Shown one piece after another: positions 4,382 through 20,041 of a stretch of DNA of 64,000 bases. The translations under genes were made by a program, and so were the position numbers. The notes beneath the pieces were generated by a model. That model was not told where the DNA came from. It did not search any database and was given only the letters and a program-made list of their open reading frames with translations. Every line of letters begins with the position of its first letter. Positions within the stretch are counted from its first letter, which is position 1. The stretch is from Dyadobacter fanqingshengii (GTDB taxonomy: Bacteria; Bacteroidota; Bacteroidia; Cytophagales; Spirosomataceae). The DNA lies in contig NZ_CP098806.1 of the NCBI RefSeq assembly GCF_023822005.2, forward strand, positions 1,240,001 to 1,304,000, read 5' to 3'.

Positions 4382-5860
4382 ATGAGCTTTTACAGAGAAC
4401 TTGAAAACCATGTGCACGAGCAGTTAAGCCGACGGAATTTCTTATCAAAAACAAGCCTTGGACTTGGAGCGGCCGCCATGGCTTCCCTATTAAATGCAGA
4501 TGATTCGATGGCGAAGAAAGTTGCTTCTGGAACGCCAGAGGGTGCATCATTACCATTGGGTAAGCCTCATTTTGCACCCAAAGCGAAGCGGATCATTTAC
4601 CTGTTCCAAAGCGGCGCACCCTCGCAGCTGGAACTGTTTGACTATAAGCCAAAATTGGAACAAATGTGGGGCCAGGATCTGCCCGAATCGGTGCGGAAAG
4701 GGCAGCGGTTAACGGGTATGACCGCCGGACAAAGCAGTTTTCCGCTCGCGGCTTCTAAATACAAATTTGCCAAGCACGGTTCCAATGATATGATGATCAG
4801 CGAGTTGATGCCTTACACGTCCAGCATTGTGGATGATGTAACATTCATTCGCTCCATGCACACGGAGGCCATTAACCACGATCCGGCTGTCACGTTTTTC
4901 CAAACGGGAAGCCAGCAAGGCGGGCGTCCTTCGTGGGGATCCTGGATCAGTTACGGGCTTGGTTCAGACAACCAGAATATGCCTTCTTTTGTCGTGTTGC
5001 TTTCCAAAGGCCGCGCAGGCGACCAGCCGCTTTATGCAAAATTATGGAGTAACGGTTTTCTGCCTTCCGTGCATCAGGGCGTTGTTTTCCGCTCCGGCCC
5101 CGACCCGGTTTTTTACCTGAACAATCCCGAAGGCATTGATAAAACAAGCCGCCGCCGAATGCTGAACTCGCTGGCGAAATTACAGCAGGCACAGTTTGAG
5201 AAAATCCTGGACCCCGAGGTAAATTACCGGATGGCACAGTATGAAATGGCTTATCGCATGCAAACGGCGGTGCCGGAAACCATGGATATTTCCAAAGAGC
5301 CGGATTACATTTTTGACCTCTACGGAGAGGAATCCCGCAAGCCTGGAACATTCGCCGCCAACTGCTTACTTGCGCGCAAACTCATTGAAAAGGACGTCAA
5401 ATTCGTTCAGCTTTACCACCAGGGCTGGGATCAGCATGGTAACCTGCCGAATGACATTAAAACTATGGCTAAAAGCGTGGACCAGGCATCCGCAGCATTG
5501 ATTAAGGACTTGAAACAGCGTGGCTTACTCGATGAAACGCTGGTGGTTTGGGGTGGAGAATTCGGGCGTGGTGCTTACTCGCAGGGCAAGCTTACCAAAG
5601 ACAATTACGGCCGCGACCACCATCCGAGAAGCTTCACGATCTGGATGGCAGGCGCGGGCGTTAAGAAAGGTTTCGTGTTTGGAGAAACGGATGAATTTGG
5701 ATACAATGTGATCAAAGATCCTGTGCATGTGCATGACTTTCAGGCAACTGTTATGCATTTATTAGGCGTAGATCACGAACAATTGGTCTTCAAACACCAG
5801 GGCCGCCGCTATCGCCTCACCGACGTGCACGGCAAAGTTGTGAAACCGATATTGACTTAA
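4382..5860 (+). CDS. DUF1501 family protein with Tat-type signal
   Basis: Protein of 492 residues with an N-terminal twin-arginine motif (SRRNFLSKTSLGLGAAAMASLL, Arg17-Arg18), suggesting export in folded form. The body has the alkaline-phosphatase/sulfatase-like fold features of DUF1501: FQSGAPSQLELFDYKP near the start, the conserved YHQGWDQHGNL segment, and GGEFGRG followed by DHHPRSFTIWMAGAGVK near the end. It lacks the Cys/Ser-x-Pro-x-Arg signature of classical sulfatases. It is the regular partner of DUF1553 proteins and is separated from the upstream one by only 12 bases, so the two are presumably cotranscribed and act together in the periplasm or at the outer membrane. Catalytic activity is unproven for the family. 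Confidence 0.9.
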   Translation: MSFYRELENHVHEQLSRRNFLSKTSLGLGAAAMASLLNADDSMAKKVASGTPEGASLPLGKPHFAPKAKRIIYLFQSGAPSQLELFDYKPKLEQMWGQDLPESVRKGQRLTGMTAGQSSFPLAASKYKFAKHGSNDMMISELMPYTSSIVDDVTFIRSMHTEAINHDPAVTFFQTGSQQGGRPSWGSWISYGLGSDNQNMPSFVVLLSKGRAGDQPLYAKLWSNGFLPSVHQGVVFRSGPDPVFYLNNPEGIDKTSRRRMLNSLAKLQQAQFEKILDPEVNYRMAQYEMAYRMQTAVPETMDISKEPDYIFDLYGEESRKPGTFAANCLLARKLIEKDVKFVQLYHQGWDQHGNLPNDIKTMAKSVDQASAALIKDLKQRGLLDETLVVWGGEFGRGAYSQGKLTKDNYGRDHHPRSFTIWMAGAGVKKGFVFGETDEFGYNVIKDPVHVHDFQATVMHLLGVDHEQLVFKHQGRRYRLTDVHGKVVKPILT

Positions 5861-13647: not shown

Positions 13648-14430
13648 TTATTCTTCCGGATCGGCGATTTCTATCCAGGTCGGTGCGTGGTCACTTGACT
13701 TTTCCCATCCCCGGACGTCCTTGTCCACACCGGCAGCGAGAAGCCGCGCATCAATGTGCGGACTCAGTAAAAAATGATCGATCCTCAGGCCGGCATTGCG
13801 CCCATATGCATTTCTGAAATAGTCCCAGAATGTGTAAATGGTTTCATCAGGATGCAGTTTTCTGATGGCGTCGGTCCAGCCCTGGTCTACGATATTTTTA
13901 AATGCTGCACGCACTTCCGGACGGAAAAGCGCGTCGTCTACCCAGCGCTCGGGTTTGTAAACATCTAGCTCCGTAGGCATAACATTGTAATCGCCGGCCA
14001 GGATAACCGGCACATCATAGGCCAGCAATTCCGCCGCGTGAGCAGCAAACCTTTCAAACCAGCGGAGTTTATATTCCAACTTCGGTCCGGGAGCCGGGTT
14101 ACCATTAGGAAGATAAAGGCATCCGACGAGCATTCCGTTGATAATGGCCTCAATGTAACGGCTGTGCAGGTCTTCGTCGTCGCCCGGAAGCGATCTCCGC
14201 ACTTCTTTCAGCTCCATGCCCCGCGCCAGGATCGCTACGCCATTCCAGCTTTTTTGACCGTGCCAGATCGCATTGTAACCTGCATCCGCGATCGCTTTTT
14301 CCGGAAATTTCTCTTGCGGTGCTTTCAATTCCTGCAAACAAACGACATCCGGTTTGGTCGTTTCCAGCCAGCGCAGCAGCACCGGCAGCCTGCCATTCAC
14401 TCCATTGACATTATAAGTGGCAATTCTCAT
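13648..14430 (-). CDS. xth: Exodeoxyribonuclease III
   Basis: Protein of 260 residues, the normal length for ExoIII/AP endonuclease 1. Family motifs are in order: RIATYNVNGVNGR at the N-terminus, the metal-binding glutamate in CLQELKAP (Glu34), AGDYNVMPTELDVY in the middle, and RIDHFLLSP followed by SDHAPTWIEI with the catalytic histidine at the end. It cleaves abasic sites and degrades 3' ends in base excision repair in the cytoplasm. It lies between the ankyrin gene and the sulfatase gene on the same strand with gaps of 81 and 42 bases, and appears unrelated in function to both. Confidence 0.95.
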   Translation of the reverse strand: MRIATYNVNGVNGRLPVLLRWLETTKPDVVCLQELKAPQEKFPEKAIADAGYNAIWHGQKSWNGVAILARGMELKEVRRSLPGDDEDLHSRYIEAIINGMLVGCLYLPNGNPAPGPKLEYKLRWFERFAAHAAELLAYDVPVILAGDYNVMPTELDVYKPERWVDDALFRPEVRAAFKNIVDQGWTDAIRKLHPDETIYTFWDYFRNAYGRNAGLRIDHFLLSPHIDARLLAAGVDKDVRGWEKSSDHAPTWIEIADPEE

Positions 14431-14472: not shown

Positions 14473-16058
14473 TCAGTCCCGGCTTTTGGCTGCGATAGCA
14501 TCGGGTAGGGGAACTTCCGCTCCGGTGCTTTTGAAAACCGGCCATTGCGCGTTCATTTGCTTCAATTGCTTTGAAAAAAGTGCAGCGAGTTCTTTCACCT
14601 TTTCGGGTTTCGAAGCCGCAAGGTCATTTTCTTCTCCGATGTCATTTTTGAGATCATACAGTTCCAGTTTTGCTTTTCTGTAATCGTAAATCAATTTCCA
14701 ATCCCCCTTACGAAATGCGCTGGCATAGTGAATGTTGGGCCCCTCCGCAGCGATCCAGCGGTTGGGATGGTGCCAGACAAGCTCGCGGTTCGCGTCCTTT
14801 AATGCAGGATTTTTAAGTAATGGAAGAAAGCTTTTCCCATCCGTTTGCTGGACCAGTTTGGGATTTTTGATGCCAGCCACGTCCAGGATCGTCGGGAAAA
14901 AATCTTCAATAATCACATATTGGTCCGCCACGGAATTGGCTTTCACCACTTTCGGCCAGCGCACCAGCATAGGCTCACGGATCCCGCCTTCATACACAGA
15001 TCCTTTTCCCGCTTTCAATGGCAAATTATGCGTCCAGGCCTGTCCGCCACGCGAAGGGCTCGTGCTCAGGCCGCCATTATCCGACATGAAAAGGATGATC
15101 GTATTGTTAGCAATCTTGCGTTTATCCAGAAAATCGAGCACATCGCCGAGGCTCTTGTCCATGCCCTCAACTAGCGCGGCATATTTTGCTTCCGTGCTGT
15201 CGAGACCGGTTTTTAAATATTTATCCAAATAGCGCTTATCCGCATTTAAGGGAATATGAACGGCATAATGGGCCAAGTATAAAAAGAACGGCTTCTTGTC
15301 TTCCAAAGGTTTTTCGATTGCTTTCAAAGCCTCGGTTGTAATGGCATCGGTCAGGAAAACATTGGTGCCGTGATATGCTTCCAGGCCAGGCACCGCGTTG
15401 CGGTTGGACTTTCCGTTAACTACATTATCATAATTCTTTTCACCCAGATAACTCGCCGGATGGCCGATGGAGCTGCCAGCAATGTTGATATCAAATCCGA
15501 CATTTTTAGGATCAGAACCGGGCGTGCCCGTCGAACCGAAATGTGCCTTGCCGCTGTGAATGGTGTAATAACCGTTTTGTTTCAGAATAGCCGGCAATGG
15601 TGTCCCGTGAAAAGTGTGCGCAATGTTGGCAACGGGACTAAACCCATTGATGTTCCAGTCGACCGGCTTAACGGTCGGGTCCTCATGATCGGTATTTTTA
15701 TCTTTATCCGGTGATGTCCAATGTGTTACATGCGTGCGGGCTGCGTTTGCGCCTGTAAGCAGGCTCACCCGCGAAGGCGTGCACACTGGCATTGCATAAG
15801 CATTCGTGAACTTCATGCCCTCCCTGGCCATGCGCTCCATATTAGGCGTGTGATAGCGTTTATTCAATGGCGTTGCCTGTGTCCAAAAAGGAACCGAAGT
15901 ATCCTGCCAGCCCATATCGTCGACAAAAAAAACAATAATGTTGGGTTTTTCAGATGCGCCGGTTTGCGCAAAAATTGGAATGAAATTGAGCGGCGCAAAA
16001 GCGAGCAGAGAAAGAGAAATGCGTTTGATATGCGTTTGATAATGCTAATAACAGTCAT
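14473..16058 (-). pseudogene. Sulfatase, frameshifted in the signal peptide by an 11-bp tandem duplication
   Basis: The sulfatase body is intact: the signature CTPSR (cysteine matured to formylglycine) in PVCTPSRVSLLTGANAARTH, then FMSDNGGLS, RWPKV and a normal C-terminus. The longest unbroken frame starts only at the Met of VDDMGWQD (15915), so it would lack the metal-binding Asp pair and any export signal. The missing part is present just upstream in another frame. Starting at the ATG at 16058 and counting only one copy of the 11-bp repeat at 16019-16040, the reading becomes MTVISIIKRISLSLLAFAPL, a signal peptide ending IFAQ, then EKPNIIVFFVDDMGW. With two copies the frame is shifted and ends at 15864. 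As written the gene should make no exported enzyme. It may be a true mutant, a phase-variable state or an assembly error. Confidence 0.85.
16019..16040. repeat. 11-bp tandem duplication inside the sulfatase signal sequence
   Basis: Two exact adjacent copies of ATGCGTTTGAT (16019-16029 and 16030-16040, plus strand). Removing one copy restores a continuous sulfatase reading frame with a standard signal peptide. Short adjacent repeats like this arise and collapse by replication slippage, so the change could be reversible. Confidence 0.95.
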
Positions 16059-16136: not shown

Positions 16137-17888
16137 TTACAATGCCACAACGGCCCATGGAGCCAATGTTAAAATGTTGGCTTCCAGTTCATTAGTGGCA
16201 TCTTGCTCTAATGCGAATGTGATTTTTGTGTATTTCAAAGCAGCATTCAGGTCCAGATTAACGGTCTGTTTTTCAGCGGTATGATTGGCAATGAGCAGGC
16301 AGCTTTCTTTTCGTTCCGCTCTTAACATCAACAGGGAAGTGATCTTTAAAGGAAAATCGGACGAAGTAGCTTTAATTTCTGCTGGTTTCCAGTTCAGGCT
16401 AAACTGCAAAAGTGCGCCTACGGGATAAATGTTTGCCTCATCCATAATGCCACCGGGGCCATTGGTTTCAAAATAAGTGATGGAATCGGCTCCGGCTTCG
16501 GCAAGATATTTGATGCTTCCTAATGTCCAGCCAGCTGCCAATTGCGAGGTTTGGCGGCTGTCATAATTATTTTTGGAGGCTTCATTATCGGCTGCCACTG
16601 CCTTGGATCGTGGTTTGAGGGTTATGGGCGACACATGTACTTTTTTTTCGGGAGCAATTGCCCGTGCGCTATTGATCATATCAAACTGCGCCTGCATGTT
16701 GTCGATCATCGTCAGGTCATCTTTCAAATGCGCTAGGGGCGTGAGCGAAAAGGATATAAAGTCAAGGGCTCCATAATCCATCCGGTTACGGTTGAATTCA
16801 GCGAAATGCGTATCTGTTCCGCCTCCCAGTTCAACATGGGGCAATTGTTCACGAATGTTTGGGATGACATTCGCAATGAATTCAGTATTCGTAAGTCCGG
16901 AAATCGCATCGAAGAAAAGGATCGATTTTACAGCGCTTGCATGCTCTGTAATCGCATTCAGGAACATTGGAATATTTTTGTCCTGTGCAGTGCAGAAAAC
17001 AGCCAGTTCCAGCCTGGTTTCACAAAGACGACATTTTTCCAAAGCGAGCATTAGCTGTTCGCGCCAACGATCGTCCGAAAGAAAAATATCTTTTCGTAAA
17101 TGATTTATCTTTAAATGTTTGACAAAGTCCAATTCACGCGCCGAACAACTTGACGCCAGCTGTAAACCGAGCTTGGGAAACGTTGAGTAAGCGTCATTCT
17201 GATAAACTCTAATCGTCTCTGTTAAAGGTTTTTGCAGCGTAATTACATCCGTCACCGTTAGCCTGACCGACTGATTGATCAGTGTTCCTTTCTCTAGCAA
17301 TTTTGGGAAAGGCAATTCCAGTGGTGTGCAATAGGTTTTGTATGAAGCATCAGACCAGTTCCGCTGATCCTCAGTTTCAAAAATATCACCTTCAAAATCC
17401 AACCTTACCCGGCCTGTTTTGCCCACCGGCCATTCCATTGCACGAATGTTCAGAAATGGCTGGTGCGGGCTGATCGCTTCCGGGAAATATTTGTGCGAAA
17501 AATAGCCGTCGGGATGCTCAATGCAGCAAGGCGTCCCGGCAAATTGGTCGGTCGCGTGCAAGACACATAATCCAGCCCTGTTGGTCAAAAAGCTATTCGT
17601 TGCCTGACCCTGAATGTTAAATTGAATGCTGCCATCCGGCGCGCCGGTAATTTCGACTTTCCAATTGAAATGAAAGCCGTTTTCCCGGACCTTGCTGGTG
17701 AATTTCACAGAAAATGAGTTTGCGCTGCTTTTAATTTCCTCGCCGCTGATTTCATGTGATAAAGTATTCCATTCGCGATCACGGATTGCGAAGTAGATCA
17801 TCCGTACAACTTCCTGATTATCAATGCGTATATAACGGAGATTGCCATCCGAATAGTCAGCTTGCACAGGACCGGCTTGAAGCAGCAT
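16137..17888 (-). CDS. apnL: D-apionate lactonase-like protein
   Basis: Cytoplasmic protein of 583 residues without a signal peptide. It resembles the ApnL family by recognition of several blocks: LRYIRIDNQEVVRMIYFAIRDREWNT, CVLHATDQFAGTPCCIEHPDG, SPHQPFLNIRAMEWPV, EDQRNWSDASYKTYCTPL and a C-terminal barrel-like region with SITYFETNGPGGIMD. ApnL opens D-apionolactone to D-apionate in apiose catabolism. Its stop is followed downstream by the sulfatase; upstream, 15 bases away, lies a Gfo/Idh/MocA gene resembling D-apiose dehydrogenase, which makes the lactone. That pairing supports the assignment. No later steps (ApnO, OiaK/OiaT/OiaX-like) are visible in the window, so action on another aldonolactone remains possible. 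Confidence 0.68.
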   Translation of the reverse strand: MLLQAGPVQADYSDGNLRYIRIDNQEVVRMIYFAIRDREWNTLSHEISGEEIKSSANSFSVKFTSKVRENGFHFNWKVEITGAPDGSIQFNIQGQATNSFLTNRAGLCVLHATDQFAGTPCCIEHPDGYFSHKYFPEAISPHQPFLNIRAMEWPVGKTGRVRLDFEGDIFETEDQRNWSDASYKTYCTPLELPFPKLLEKGTLINQSVRLTVTDVITLQKPLTETIRVYQNDAYSTFPKLGLQLASSCSARELDFVKHLKINHLRKDIFLSDDRWREQLMLALEKCRLCETRLELAVFCTAQDKNIPMFLNAITEHASAVKSILFFDAISGLTNTEFIANVIPNIREQLPHVELGGGTDTHFAEFNRNRMDYGALDFISFSLTPLAHLKDDLTMIDNMQAQFDMINSARAIAPEKKVHVSPITLKPRSKAVAADNEASKNNYDSRQTSQLAAGWTLGSIKYLAEAGADSITYFETNGPGGIMDEANIYPVGALLQFSLNWKPAEIKATSSDFPLKITSLLMLRAERKESCLLIANHTAEKQTVNLDLNAALKYTKITFALEQDATNELEANILTLAPWAVVAL

Positions 17889-17903
17889 AAGTGTGGTGGT
17901 TGG

Positions 17904-18929
17904 TTAAAAATGGATGACTTTATTCTCACGGGCAGACTGGTACGCAGCCTGCACCAGCCGCATCGTTTCCAGATTGTCTTTCCCGGTTGTTTCCGCATGC
18001 TTCTTTCCCATAATGCTATCCAGAATATTGCGGTTGCAATCCACAATGGACGAATGCACCACTGCATACTCGGGATCCATCCAGGGATAAGGTTTTGGGT
18101 CAGCGGTCGTTATCACGGTTCCTTTCCGCGTTGTAATCTTGATCATATAATTGTGTAATAACTGAATCGTGCCCTTTTCACCTTCCACCGAAATCAGCGT
18201 TTGCGGAAAAGATTCCTGTTCCGCAATCGTGGCATAAGACATTTCAACAAAACAGGAAATGCCATTTTTCATGCGCAAAAGCACATTAGCAACATCTTCT
18301 CCTCGAATGTCAGGATTAATCCTGGCCGTGTGACAATATAACGACTCGGCCTCGCCAAACAAAAACCTGGAAATGTCCAGCACGTGCGAACCAATGTCGG
18401 TAATGATAAATTGTTCAAGATCTTTTAAGAATGGCTGGTTATCAAACACCGGAAACCCAGAGCAGAAAGCAACATTAGCCTTAAATATTTTGCCAATAAT
18501 CCCATATTCCAATATCTCCTTCAACTTCCTGACCGGAGCCTGGAAACGGAAATTCTCATGAATATAAAACTGAACATTAGCCGCTTTGCAAGTCTCGACC
18601 ATTGCCAGGGAAGTTTCCCAACTCGGCGACATGGGTTTTTGGCAAATCACATTCACGCCCCTTGCGGCAGCTTTTTTGGTAAAAATGGCGTGCGTGTTTA
18701 CGTCGGTGATGATATCCACAAAGTCCAGTTCGGCAGCATGCTGATCGAGAAGTTCATCCACATTGTCGTAAACGAACTCGACGTCATGCTTCAATGCCAG
18801 GGCTTTGGCTTTATCCAGGCTGCGGTTATAGAAAGCAATCGGTTTTACATTTTTGAGCTCATTCCAGCCCGCCAGTTGATATCCCGACCAAAACCCGGTT
18901 CCCAAAACCGCAAACTTGTAAATCCTCAT
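17904..18929 (-). CDS. apsD: Gfo/Idh/MocA oxidoreductase, D-apiose dehydrogenase-like
   Basis: Protein of 341 residues with a Rossmann N-terminus (FAVLGTGFWSGYQLAGW) and the family's CQKPMSPS segment carrying the conserved Lys-Pro. The C-terminal domain contains SGFPVFDNQPFLKDLEQFIITDIGSHVLD and RFLFGEAESLYCHTARINPDIRGEDVANV, which I associate with D-apiose dehydrogenase (ApsD), an NAD-dependent enzyme producing apionolactone. There is no signal peptide, so it is cytoplasmic. It precedes the apionate lactonase-like gene by 15 bases on the same strand, and a GntR-type regulator gene lies just upstream. Assignment to the Gfo/Idh/MocA family is certain; the exact substrate is an inference from sequence blocks and context. 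Confidence 0.72.
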   Translation of the reverse strand: MRIYKFAVLGTGFWSGYQLAGWNELKNVKPIAFYNRSLDKAKALALKHDVEFVYDNVDELLDQHAAELDFVDIITDVNTHAIFTKKAAARGVNVICQKPMSPSWETSLAMVETCKAANVQFYIHENFRFQAPVRKLKEILEYGIIGKIFKANVAFCSGFPVFDNQPFLKDLEQFIITDIGSHVLDISRFLFGEAESLYCHTARINPDIRGEDVANVLLRMKNGISCFVEMSYATIAEQESFPQTLISVEGEKGTIQLLHNYMIKITTRKGTVITTADPKPYPWMDPEYAVVHSSIVDCNRNILDSIMGKKHAETTGKDNLETMRLVQAAYQSARENKVIHF

Positions 18930-18960
18930 AAGGCAAAATGAATGTCAAAATCAGTGGCAT

Positions 18961-19013
18961 CTCTACTGCACTCTACTATTAAACAAATATATTATTTTTT
19001 GTTATGGTAGTAT
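18961..19013. promoter_or_regulatory. Promoter region of the apsD/apnL-like genes with direct and inverted repeats
   Basis: In the 98 bases between the regulator stop and the oxidoreductase start there is a direct repeat of CTCTACT (18961-18967 and 18971-18977). An imperfect dyad also runs from CTACTATTAAACAAA (18973-18987) to TTTGTTATGGTAG (18998-19010), around an AT-rich centre. It is a candidate operator for the GntR/LacI-type protein encoded next door. No binding evidence exists; the dyad is imperfect. Confidence 0.35.
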
Positions 19014-19027
19014 GTCGTTGGCAGAAT

Positions 19028-20041
19028 TTACAGCGATTTACGGCGGATTAGGCTGGAGGGATTGGCAGTTTTCGTGGTGAGTTTTTGATCAATGATTTTA
19101 CTGAGCGTTTGGCCCATTTGTTCAAAATCTGTGGAGATCACAGTGATTCCGCCTTCGAGGATCTCTTTCATCGGCGTGTCGTCATAGGAGATTAATCCAA
19201 CATCCTTTCCTAAATGCAACCCCGTGCGATGCACATGTTTTACAAAATCGATCAGGTCACGATCAGCAAAAAGCAGATAGGCTTCCTGCTTCCTGATCAT
19301 GTCATCGCTGAACTGATCCGCGATCTGACAATCCATTTCAAAATCCTCGCAAAAACGTTTAAAACCTTTGATGATGCCGTCAGGAACGAACTGAAACTGT
19401 CCCTTTGCGAGCACCAGCGTCAGTTTTTTATATTTTTTCAAAAGATCCAGTCCCGATTTCAGCGCTGAATAAATATCATTTTCAAAATCCTGAAAAACGG
19501 CGGCATAATTGCCTGAAACTTCTTCCGCGGCCTTGTCGATGATGACGAGCCTGTCCTTTGAAATGCGGTTTAATGTGGCCGACACATCCTCATTGAAATG
19601 AGGCATGATAACGAAATAATTATAGTTGTTCAAATTATTGGTGATCAGATCGTCGAATAACGCGCGGTCATAATGATGGAAAAACAAGCTAAGCTGGGAT
19701 CCATCCGGAAGCCGGGATTTGAGTGCAAAATATAAGATCTCCTTGTAAGCATTTAATGTATCAAAAAGCAGAAAAACATTAAGTGCTCCTTTCACAGCTG
19801 TGTTCGCAACGTAAAATCCTTTGCCATGTTTCGCCTGGATCACGCCTCTTTTCCGTAAATCCTCATATGCCTTTGCAACCGTCACTTTCGCCACATTTTG
19901 CCAGCTCGACAGCTCACTGATCGACGGCAGTTGCTGCCCATGGTTCAAGGTGCCCTTTTCGATGGAAGAAATCACCTCATTCAGTATCTGCTGGTATTTG
20001 GGTTGTTTTGAAAGGGCATCAATTTTTATCAGGTCTCTCAT
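19028..20041 (-). CDS. GntR-type regulator with LacI-like sensor domain
   Basis: Protein of 337 residues. Residues 1-75 are a GntR winged helix (KYQQILNEVISSIEKGTLNHGQQLPS, then KVTVAKAYEDLRKRGVIQAKHGKGFYV). The remainder is a periplasmic-binding-protein fold like LacI/AraR, ending with GLISYDDTPMKEILEGGITVISTDFEQMG. This AraR-like architecture is typical of sugar-responsive repressors of pentose and other sugar genes. It lies directly upstream of the apiose-like pair on the same strand and is divergent from a TIM-barrel isomerase gene at 20162, so it probably controls both. A sugar or sugar acid of this locus is the likely effector. Confidence 0.9.
   Translation of the reverse strand: MRDLIKIDALSKQPKYQQILNEVISSIEKGTLNHGQQLPSISELSSWQNVAKVTVAKAYEDLRKRGVIQAKHGKGFYVANTAVKGALNVFLLFDTLNAYKEILYFALKSRLPDGSQLSLFFHHYDRALFDDLITNNLNNYNYFVIMPHFNEDVSATLNRISKDRLVIIDKAAEEVSGNYAAVFQDFENDIYSALKSGLDLLKKYKKLTLVLAKGQFQFVPDGIIKGFKRFCEDFEMDCQIADQFSDDMIRKQEAYLLFADRDLIDFVKHVHRTGLHLGKDVGLISYDDTPMKEILEGGITVISTDFEQMGQTLSKIIDQKLTTKTANPSSLIRRKSL

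Follow-up and report, generated by a model that had tools for sequence, protein, structure and literature searches.

The question posed by this locus of Dyadobacter fanqingshengii is whether a sulfatase gene carrying a short tandem duplication within its first codons has been lost, is switched on and off by copy number, or has been misassembled, these being the three options offered by the initial annotation. On the basis of the window (the whole stretch of 64,000 nucleotides studied here, C1:1240001-1304000) and of comparisons across the genus, we found recent loss by slippage to be the best supported of the three, given that the 11-nt insertion is derived and that the gene body is constrained. 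A recent slippage-type duplication, a known kind of loss-of-function mutation, has probably disrupted the reading frame of the sulfatase in the strain that was sequenced.

The 11-bp unit, ATGCGTTTGAT on the plus strand, is present in two exact and adjacent copies at 16019-16029 and 16030-16040, just as the initial annotation had described, and base 16041 also fits the repeat period, so that 23 bp are periodic (2.1 copies). Both copies sit within the first codons of the minus-strand sulfatase gene, the features of which are as follows.

16056..16058, minus strand: the original ATG start, which aligns with the start codons of D. psychrophilus and a second relative, G006
16030..16040, minus strand: one repeat copy, with the matching base 16041 (sequence read, ortholog scan, and alignment)
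16019..16029, minus strand: the other repeat copy, ATGCGTTTGAT in plus-strand letters (sequence read)
15864..16058, minus strand: ORF that begins at the original ATG, ending after 64 aa and out of frame past the duplication
14476..16044, minus strand: open sulfatase frame of 523 codons with no standard start ahead of the Asp pair (PF00884 at full length; SGSH_C also matched)
15916..15921, minus strand: the Asp-Asp codons (VDDMGW), directly ahead of the ATG at 15915
14473..15915, minus strand: 480-aa ORF, the longest that a standard start opens in the sulfatase frame; it lacks both the signal-peptide stretch and the Asp-Asp pair

Translation of the two-copy sequence from the ATG at 16058 yields 64 aa and then a stop at 15866-15864, the very truncation that had been claimed. 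The sulfatase frame opens at 16044, where it is bounded by a TAG at 16047-16045, and runs to its natural stop at 14475-14473. Reading of the sequence found no ATG, GTG, or TTG in this frame between 16044 and 15915; the assertion that 15915, beyond the Asp pair, is the sole remaining start accordingly holds for these three codons, near-cognate codons having gone unmentioned. The reading frame of the sulfatase depends on the copy number of the unit, being lost with two copies and intact in relatives without the extra copy. An exact period-11 pair is expected by chance at a mean of 0.4 per 2.32 Mb, or about 0.011 per 64 kb (five first-order Markov sequences).

The open frame at 14476-16044 matches PF00884 with 158.1 bits, above the curated cutoff, over profile positions 1 to 301 of 301, and the 480-aa ORF from 15915 enters the profile only at position 23. 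The VDDMGW, CTPSR, and SDNGG motifs, as read from the translations, all fall in the sulfatase frame, with the Asp pair lying ahead of the one standard start that remains. A CTPSR signature indicates maturation to formylglycine. The genome contains FGE-family (PF03781) loci, this being the family of the sulfatase maturation enzyme, and the best of them lies about 2 kb after another sulfatase; it also has one SPASM-domain locus. By analogy with the S1_16 sulfatases, as described in the available part of PMC11760155, the Asp-Asp pair would supply metal ligands. The best match among solved structures is 6USS, known only as "Sulfatase" (595 bits), followed by 7OZA, which is matched over nearly the full length (576 bits). 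The latter is BT3796 of Bacteroides thetaiotaomicron, which the accessible portions of PMC10154620 and PMC11760155 place in S1_16 and describe as active on 4-sulfated galactose and N-acetylgalactosamine. The D. fanqingshengii frame shares with BT3796 the CTPSR, Asp-Asp, and SDN motifs in addition to this near full-length similarity, whereas no standard start leads in frame into its Asp pair and signal-peptide stretch (the signal peptide being judged by eye from the first codons). We accordingly predict that the gene product is a secreted carbohydrate sulfatase of the Cys type and a relative of subfamily S1_16. PF00884 matches were recovered at 16 loci elsewhere in the genome, one of them below the cutoff. 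A close backup copy was sought and rejected, as only this locus matches at an E value of 1e-50 or better in its own genome. Within the window, a weak sulfatase-family match below the cutoff also occurs at 5414-5770 on the plus strand, inside a 496-codon open frame.

To establish which copy state is ancestral, orthologs were collected from 48 genomes of the genus, including that of D. fanqingshengii itself, 37 of which have a match at an E value of 1e-50 or better. The loci compared are the best 30 of these 37, one per genome and hence 29 from other genomes; five further entries of 51 to 74% identity, and all weaker ones, lie outside the comparison. All of the 29 orthologs examined have an in-frame ATG 33 to 60 codons ahead of the Asp pair, D. 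fanqingshengii alone being without this start, and no period-11 tandem repeat was detected in any of them in the 180 nt scanned at this place. The claim that an intact sulfatase has been thrown out of frame inside its signal peptide thus agrees with the orthologs, each of which keeps the lost start and lacks the repeat. Among the 29, none carries both copies together with a genuine start elsewhere, an outcome by which the initial annotation would have been refuted; a different genuine start is ruled out in those examined by the ATG at the expected place. Relative to D. psychrophilus (locus L002 of genome G022, taken as D. psychrophilus DSM 22270) and G006 (locus L003), D. fanqingshengii has 11 extra nt at the repeat, with the ATG context and the next codons being alignable. 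Two further relatives, G035 and G021, are likewise without the 11 nt, although the alignment is poorer. The nearest database protein among cluster representatives, P0001 (91% identical), has an intact N terminus.

The presence of the ATG without the repeat in all 29 orthologs, together with the 11-nt gap in the relatives, indicates that the insertion is derived; the case for a real insertion draws chiefly on the alignment, in which the relatives lack the 11 nt. As far as the compared genomes show, the one-copy state is the ancestral one, and the duplication is confined to the D. fanqingshengii lineage. Since the periodicity spans 12 matches, a single matching base would have been present at the ancestral junction, as might be expected of ordinary slippage with no long microhomology. 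Five of the 29 ortholog matches (L007, L008, L012, L026, and L029) cross one stop codon; in each, the ATG-led frame is open through the active-site motif, on account of which we interpret the stop as the natural terminus.

A different origin for the extra 11 nt would be an artifact, either an error of assembly or consensus or a minority culture variant taken up by the assembly. An exact 11-bp duplication is atypical as a read error. The assembly amounts to 6.27 Mb in 2 contigs and is 99.73% complete, and of 229 D. psychrophilus genes with an ortholog in D. fanqingshengii, 228 are full-length and open there, with 1 split between two frames; the 229 derive from 275 D. psychrophilus genes in 400 kb compared at ≥75% identity with 2.32 Mb, the other 46 being uncounted, and this test is blind to start losses. 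When 228 orthologs were screened for an earliest possible start more than 12 residues late, 5 were recovered, among which the sulfatase has the largest offset (44 residues). In the other four the alignment begins at query residue 24 or later, as against residue 7 in the sulfatase, and these may for that reason be overlong models in the relative. What speaks for an artifact is a split gene nearby, at C1:1224141-1228353, which implies that errors or pseudogenes do occur in this assembly. With a 99.73% complete two-contig genome and 228 of 229 orthologs unbroken, the assembly is otherwise clean enough for a stray 11-bp error to be unlikely, and the option of misassembly was weakened by the same count; we regard an artifact as improbable. 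The split gene, which lies outside the window, corresponds to a 1,404-aa gene of D. psychrophilus, and no tandem repeat was seen at its break, the only repeat of at least 4 bp in the 200 bp read being a 6-bp pair away from the break. The reverse comparison (274 D. fanqingshengii genes, 229 orthologs) gave 216 full, 2 split, and 11 partial orthologs, with in-frame stops in 6; the D. psychrophilus region concerned (G022:C18:960001-1360000, L231-L250) hence has 6 in-frame-stop and 2 split cases of 229, more than D. fanqingshengii.

The age of the event can be gauged from selection on the gene body. Over the 481 codons from the Asp pair onwards, pairwise comparison of the sulfatase gives dN/dS ratios of 0.032 (D. 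psychrophilus), 0.033 (G006), and 0.038 (G035). Counting private codon changes only where the sister species and G006 agree, we found 5 nonsynonymous and 61 synonymous changes in D. fanqingshengii and 8 and 69 in its sister D. psychrophilus (Fisher P = 0.77). At residues invariant in the other four sequences, changes number 3/356 in D. fanqingshengii, 6/359 in D. psychrophilus, and 11/364 in G006. On a neutral branch, about 200 nonsynonymous changes would be expected to accompany 61 synonymous ones; the 5 seen therefore limit the unconstrained part of the branch to at most about 5%, a bound that assumed 335 synonymous sites where the dN/dS computation implies about 320 and that is loose in absolute time because dS to D. 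psychrophilus is about 1. An old pseudogene is thus rejected, there being no decay and a dN/dS ratio near 0.03. These patterns suggest that the gene was functional until recently, or is partly so still, and that the duplication is probably a recent event. No inactivation and very recent inactivation leave an identical selection signal.

Another alternative is that the two-copy gene still yields a secreted enzyme, through either a near-cognate start or transcriptional slippage on a run of T residues that lies between the duplication and the Asp pair.

15925..15932, minus strand: eight-T run on the coding strand

Near-cognate codons in the sulfatase frame upstream of 15915 comprise ATC at 16029, CTG at 16008, and ATT at five places from 16020 onward, of which ATC 16029, ATT 16020, and CTG 16008 precede or open the signal-peptide-like stretch, as judged by eye; any of these three could serve as a weak start and would leave a plausible signal peptide. 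No other of the 30 loci has a run of eight T, at most five being present in the remaining 29, and the intact constraint on the body is likewise what a gene with residual output would display. Against these points, ATC, ATT, and CTG are rare and weak start codons, an in-frame ATG is found in 29/29 relatives, and sense-strand runs of at least eight T number 34 in 1,708 rough gene models (2.32 Mb), which makes the run at 15925-15932 unremarkable. While near-cognate starts or T-run slippage could provide traces of enzyme, we think it very unlikely that the secreted enzyme is still made by this route. Neither promoter nor terminator signals were found near the start in a scan of the sigma-70 type, by which Bacteroidota promoters are not covered.

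The recent loss of the gene by duplication has to be set, finally, against a genuine phase-variation switch, in which both copy forms would coexist in the population and the toggle would be kept by selection for the secreted enzyme. The length of the unit, which is not a multiple of three, its location ahead of the mature enzyme, and the strong constraint on the sulfatase body are all compatible with such a switch, as is the overrepresentation of period-11 pairs in the 2.32 Mb of its own chromosome examined (C1:1-2320000), where 4 exact pairs were observed against 0.4 expected from five Markov simulations. The corresponding observed and expected counts are 145 and 145.6 for period 7, 39 and 38.8 for period 8, and 23 and 7.4 for period 9; the period-11 excess suggests that such duplications may arise above the chance rate. 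However, among the 14 exact tandem repeats of period 10 or more in the same 2.32 Mb, ORF geometry indicates that the sulfatase repeat alone breaks a gene start. The other 13 are intergenic, adjacent to genes, or inside open ORFs (ORF geometry; 5 read closely), and a genome-wide pattern of start-breaking duplications was accordingly rejected for lack of a second case among these 14. Also present in this part of the chromosome are a 15-bp array of nearly five copies within a 1,051-codon ORF (C1:938349-938421) and a 16-bp unit in three copies beside two convergent ORFs (C1:1546899-1546946).

Comparison with simple-sequence-repeat contingency loci, which operate by slipped-strand mispairing, points in the same direction. 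The sulfatase resembles these in having, toward the 5' end of a gene whose product is secreted, a unit of a length not divisible by three, but with 2.1 copies of the 11-mer it has no long hypermutable tract, and the repeat is kept in 0/29 of the relatives examined. Switching by two copies is expected to be much slower than at contingency loci, with their long tracts. A second parallel is with the pneumococcal capsule genes, for which reversible sequence duplications in serotypes 3, 8, and 37 were reportedly described by Waite et al. in 2001 and 2003. In both systems a duplication within the frame silences a gene whose remainder is intact, and reversion is expected once the extra copy is lost; an exact tandem duplication within an ORF, derived in comparison with intact relatives, is what characterizes the inactivating duplications of the capsule type and is what we found here. 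Unlike the capsule genes, for which switching was reported in culture, the D. fanqingshengii sulfatase is known from one genome sequence, and the gene is one for a secreted sulfatase in a Bacteroidota host of another habitat. The accessible text of PMC4243769 terms the capsule-gene duplications reversible, and that of PMC4022640, citing Waite et al. (2001, 2003), expects reversion at about 1e-5 or less for capsule-gene insertions of at most nine bp, both of which lend the idea of a switch some credence. In the agr system of Staphylococcus aureus, the available part of PMC6686034 reports one reversible duplication plus inversion and, to the detriment of that idea, one agrA duplication without revertants. 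Reversible frameshift indels in another bacterium are described in PMC8339072, in the available part of which the words "tandem" and "duplication" are absent, and neither word occurs in the text of a phase-variation review (PMC11868660). No report of a duplication-switched sulfatase was found among the titles and abstract openings of the papers listed on Dyadobacter sulfatases and on phase variation of Bacteroides sulfatases.

The suggestion of an on/off switch therefore stands insofar as reversion is possible in principle, but a selected or frequent switch is without support, as there are two copies, an unconserved repeat, and no second case; we consider a genuine phase-variation switch highly improbable. 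The same low standing attaches to a slow reversible switch on a secreted glycan sulfatase, in which short duplications would often arise and collapse, populations would be mixed, and the gene would be preserved during its one-copy periods. Were this true, the excess of 11-bp pairs in D. fanqingshengii would be a trace of a general duplication process, and if both copy forms exist, reversible duplication switching would extend to glycan use in a Dyadobacter.

In the preferred scenario of recent loss, a spontaneous 11-bp tandem duplication, produced by replication slippage or a similar process within the signal-peptide codons, would have left the sulfatase gene of the sequenced strain out of frame. 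The outcome would be no active enzyme or only traces via near-cognate starts, and loss of one copy would restore the frame at low frequency. Judging from what is accessible of the capsule and agr duplication papers (PMC4022640, PMC4243769, and PMC6686034), the likely state is an off allele able to return at low frequency. The locus then offers a clean case of a gene apparently lost through a short tandem duplication, with its body otherwise intact, which automated annotation may label as a pseudogene or as a wrongly shortened enzyme.

The genes that flank the sulfatase are encoded on the same strand.

13648..14430, minus strand: gene of the exonuclease/endonuclease family (PF03372), located 42 bp past the stop of the sulfatase
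16137..17888, minus strand: D-apionate lactonase-like gene, the upstream neighbor (295 bits, below the NCBIfam cutoff of 750)

Early termination within the sulfatase could lower expression of the PF03372 gene by polarity. On the upstream side, a block comprising the apionate lactonase-like gene, a Gfo/Idh oxidoreductase, and a GntR regulator (16137-20041) separates the sulfatase from a divergent isomerase-like TIM-barrel gene. This three-gene block was not found beside the sulfatase in G006 and G035 (20-kb stretches, E value cutoff of 1e-20), in both of which about 300 bp separate the TIM-barrel gene from the sulfatase match; in G021, the sulfatase alone was found in the stretch searched. The neighboring genes are conserved with D. 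psychrophilus, which shares the three-gene block, the lactonase being 70% identical and the other genes compared 85 to 96% identical.
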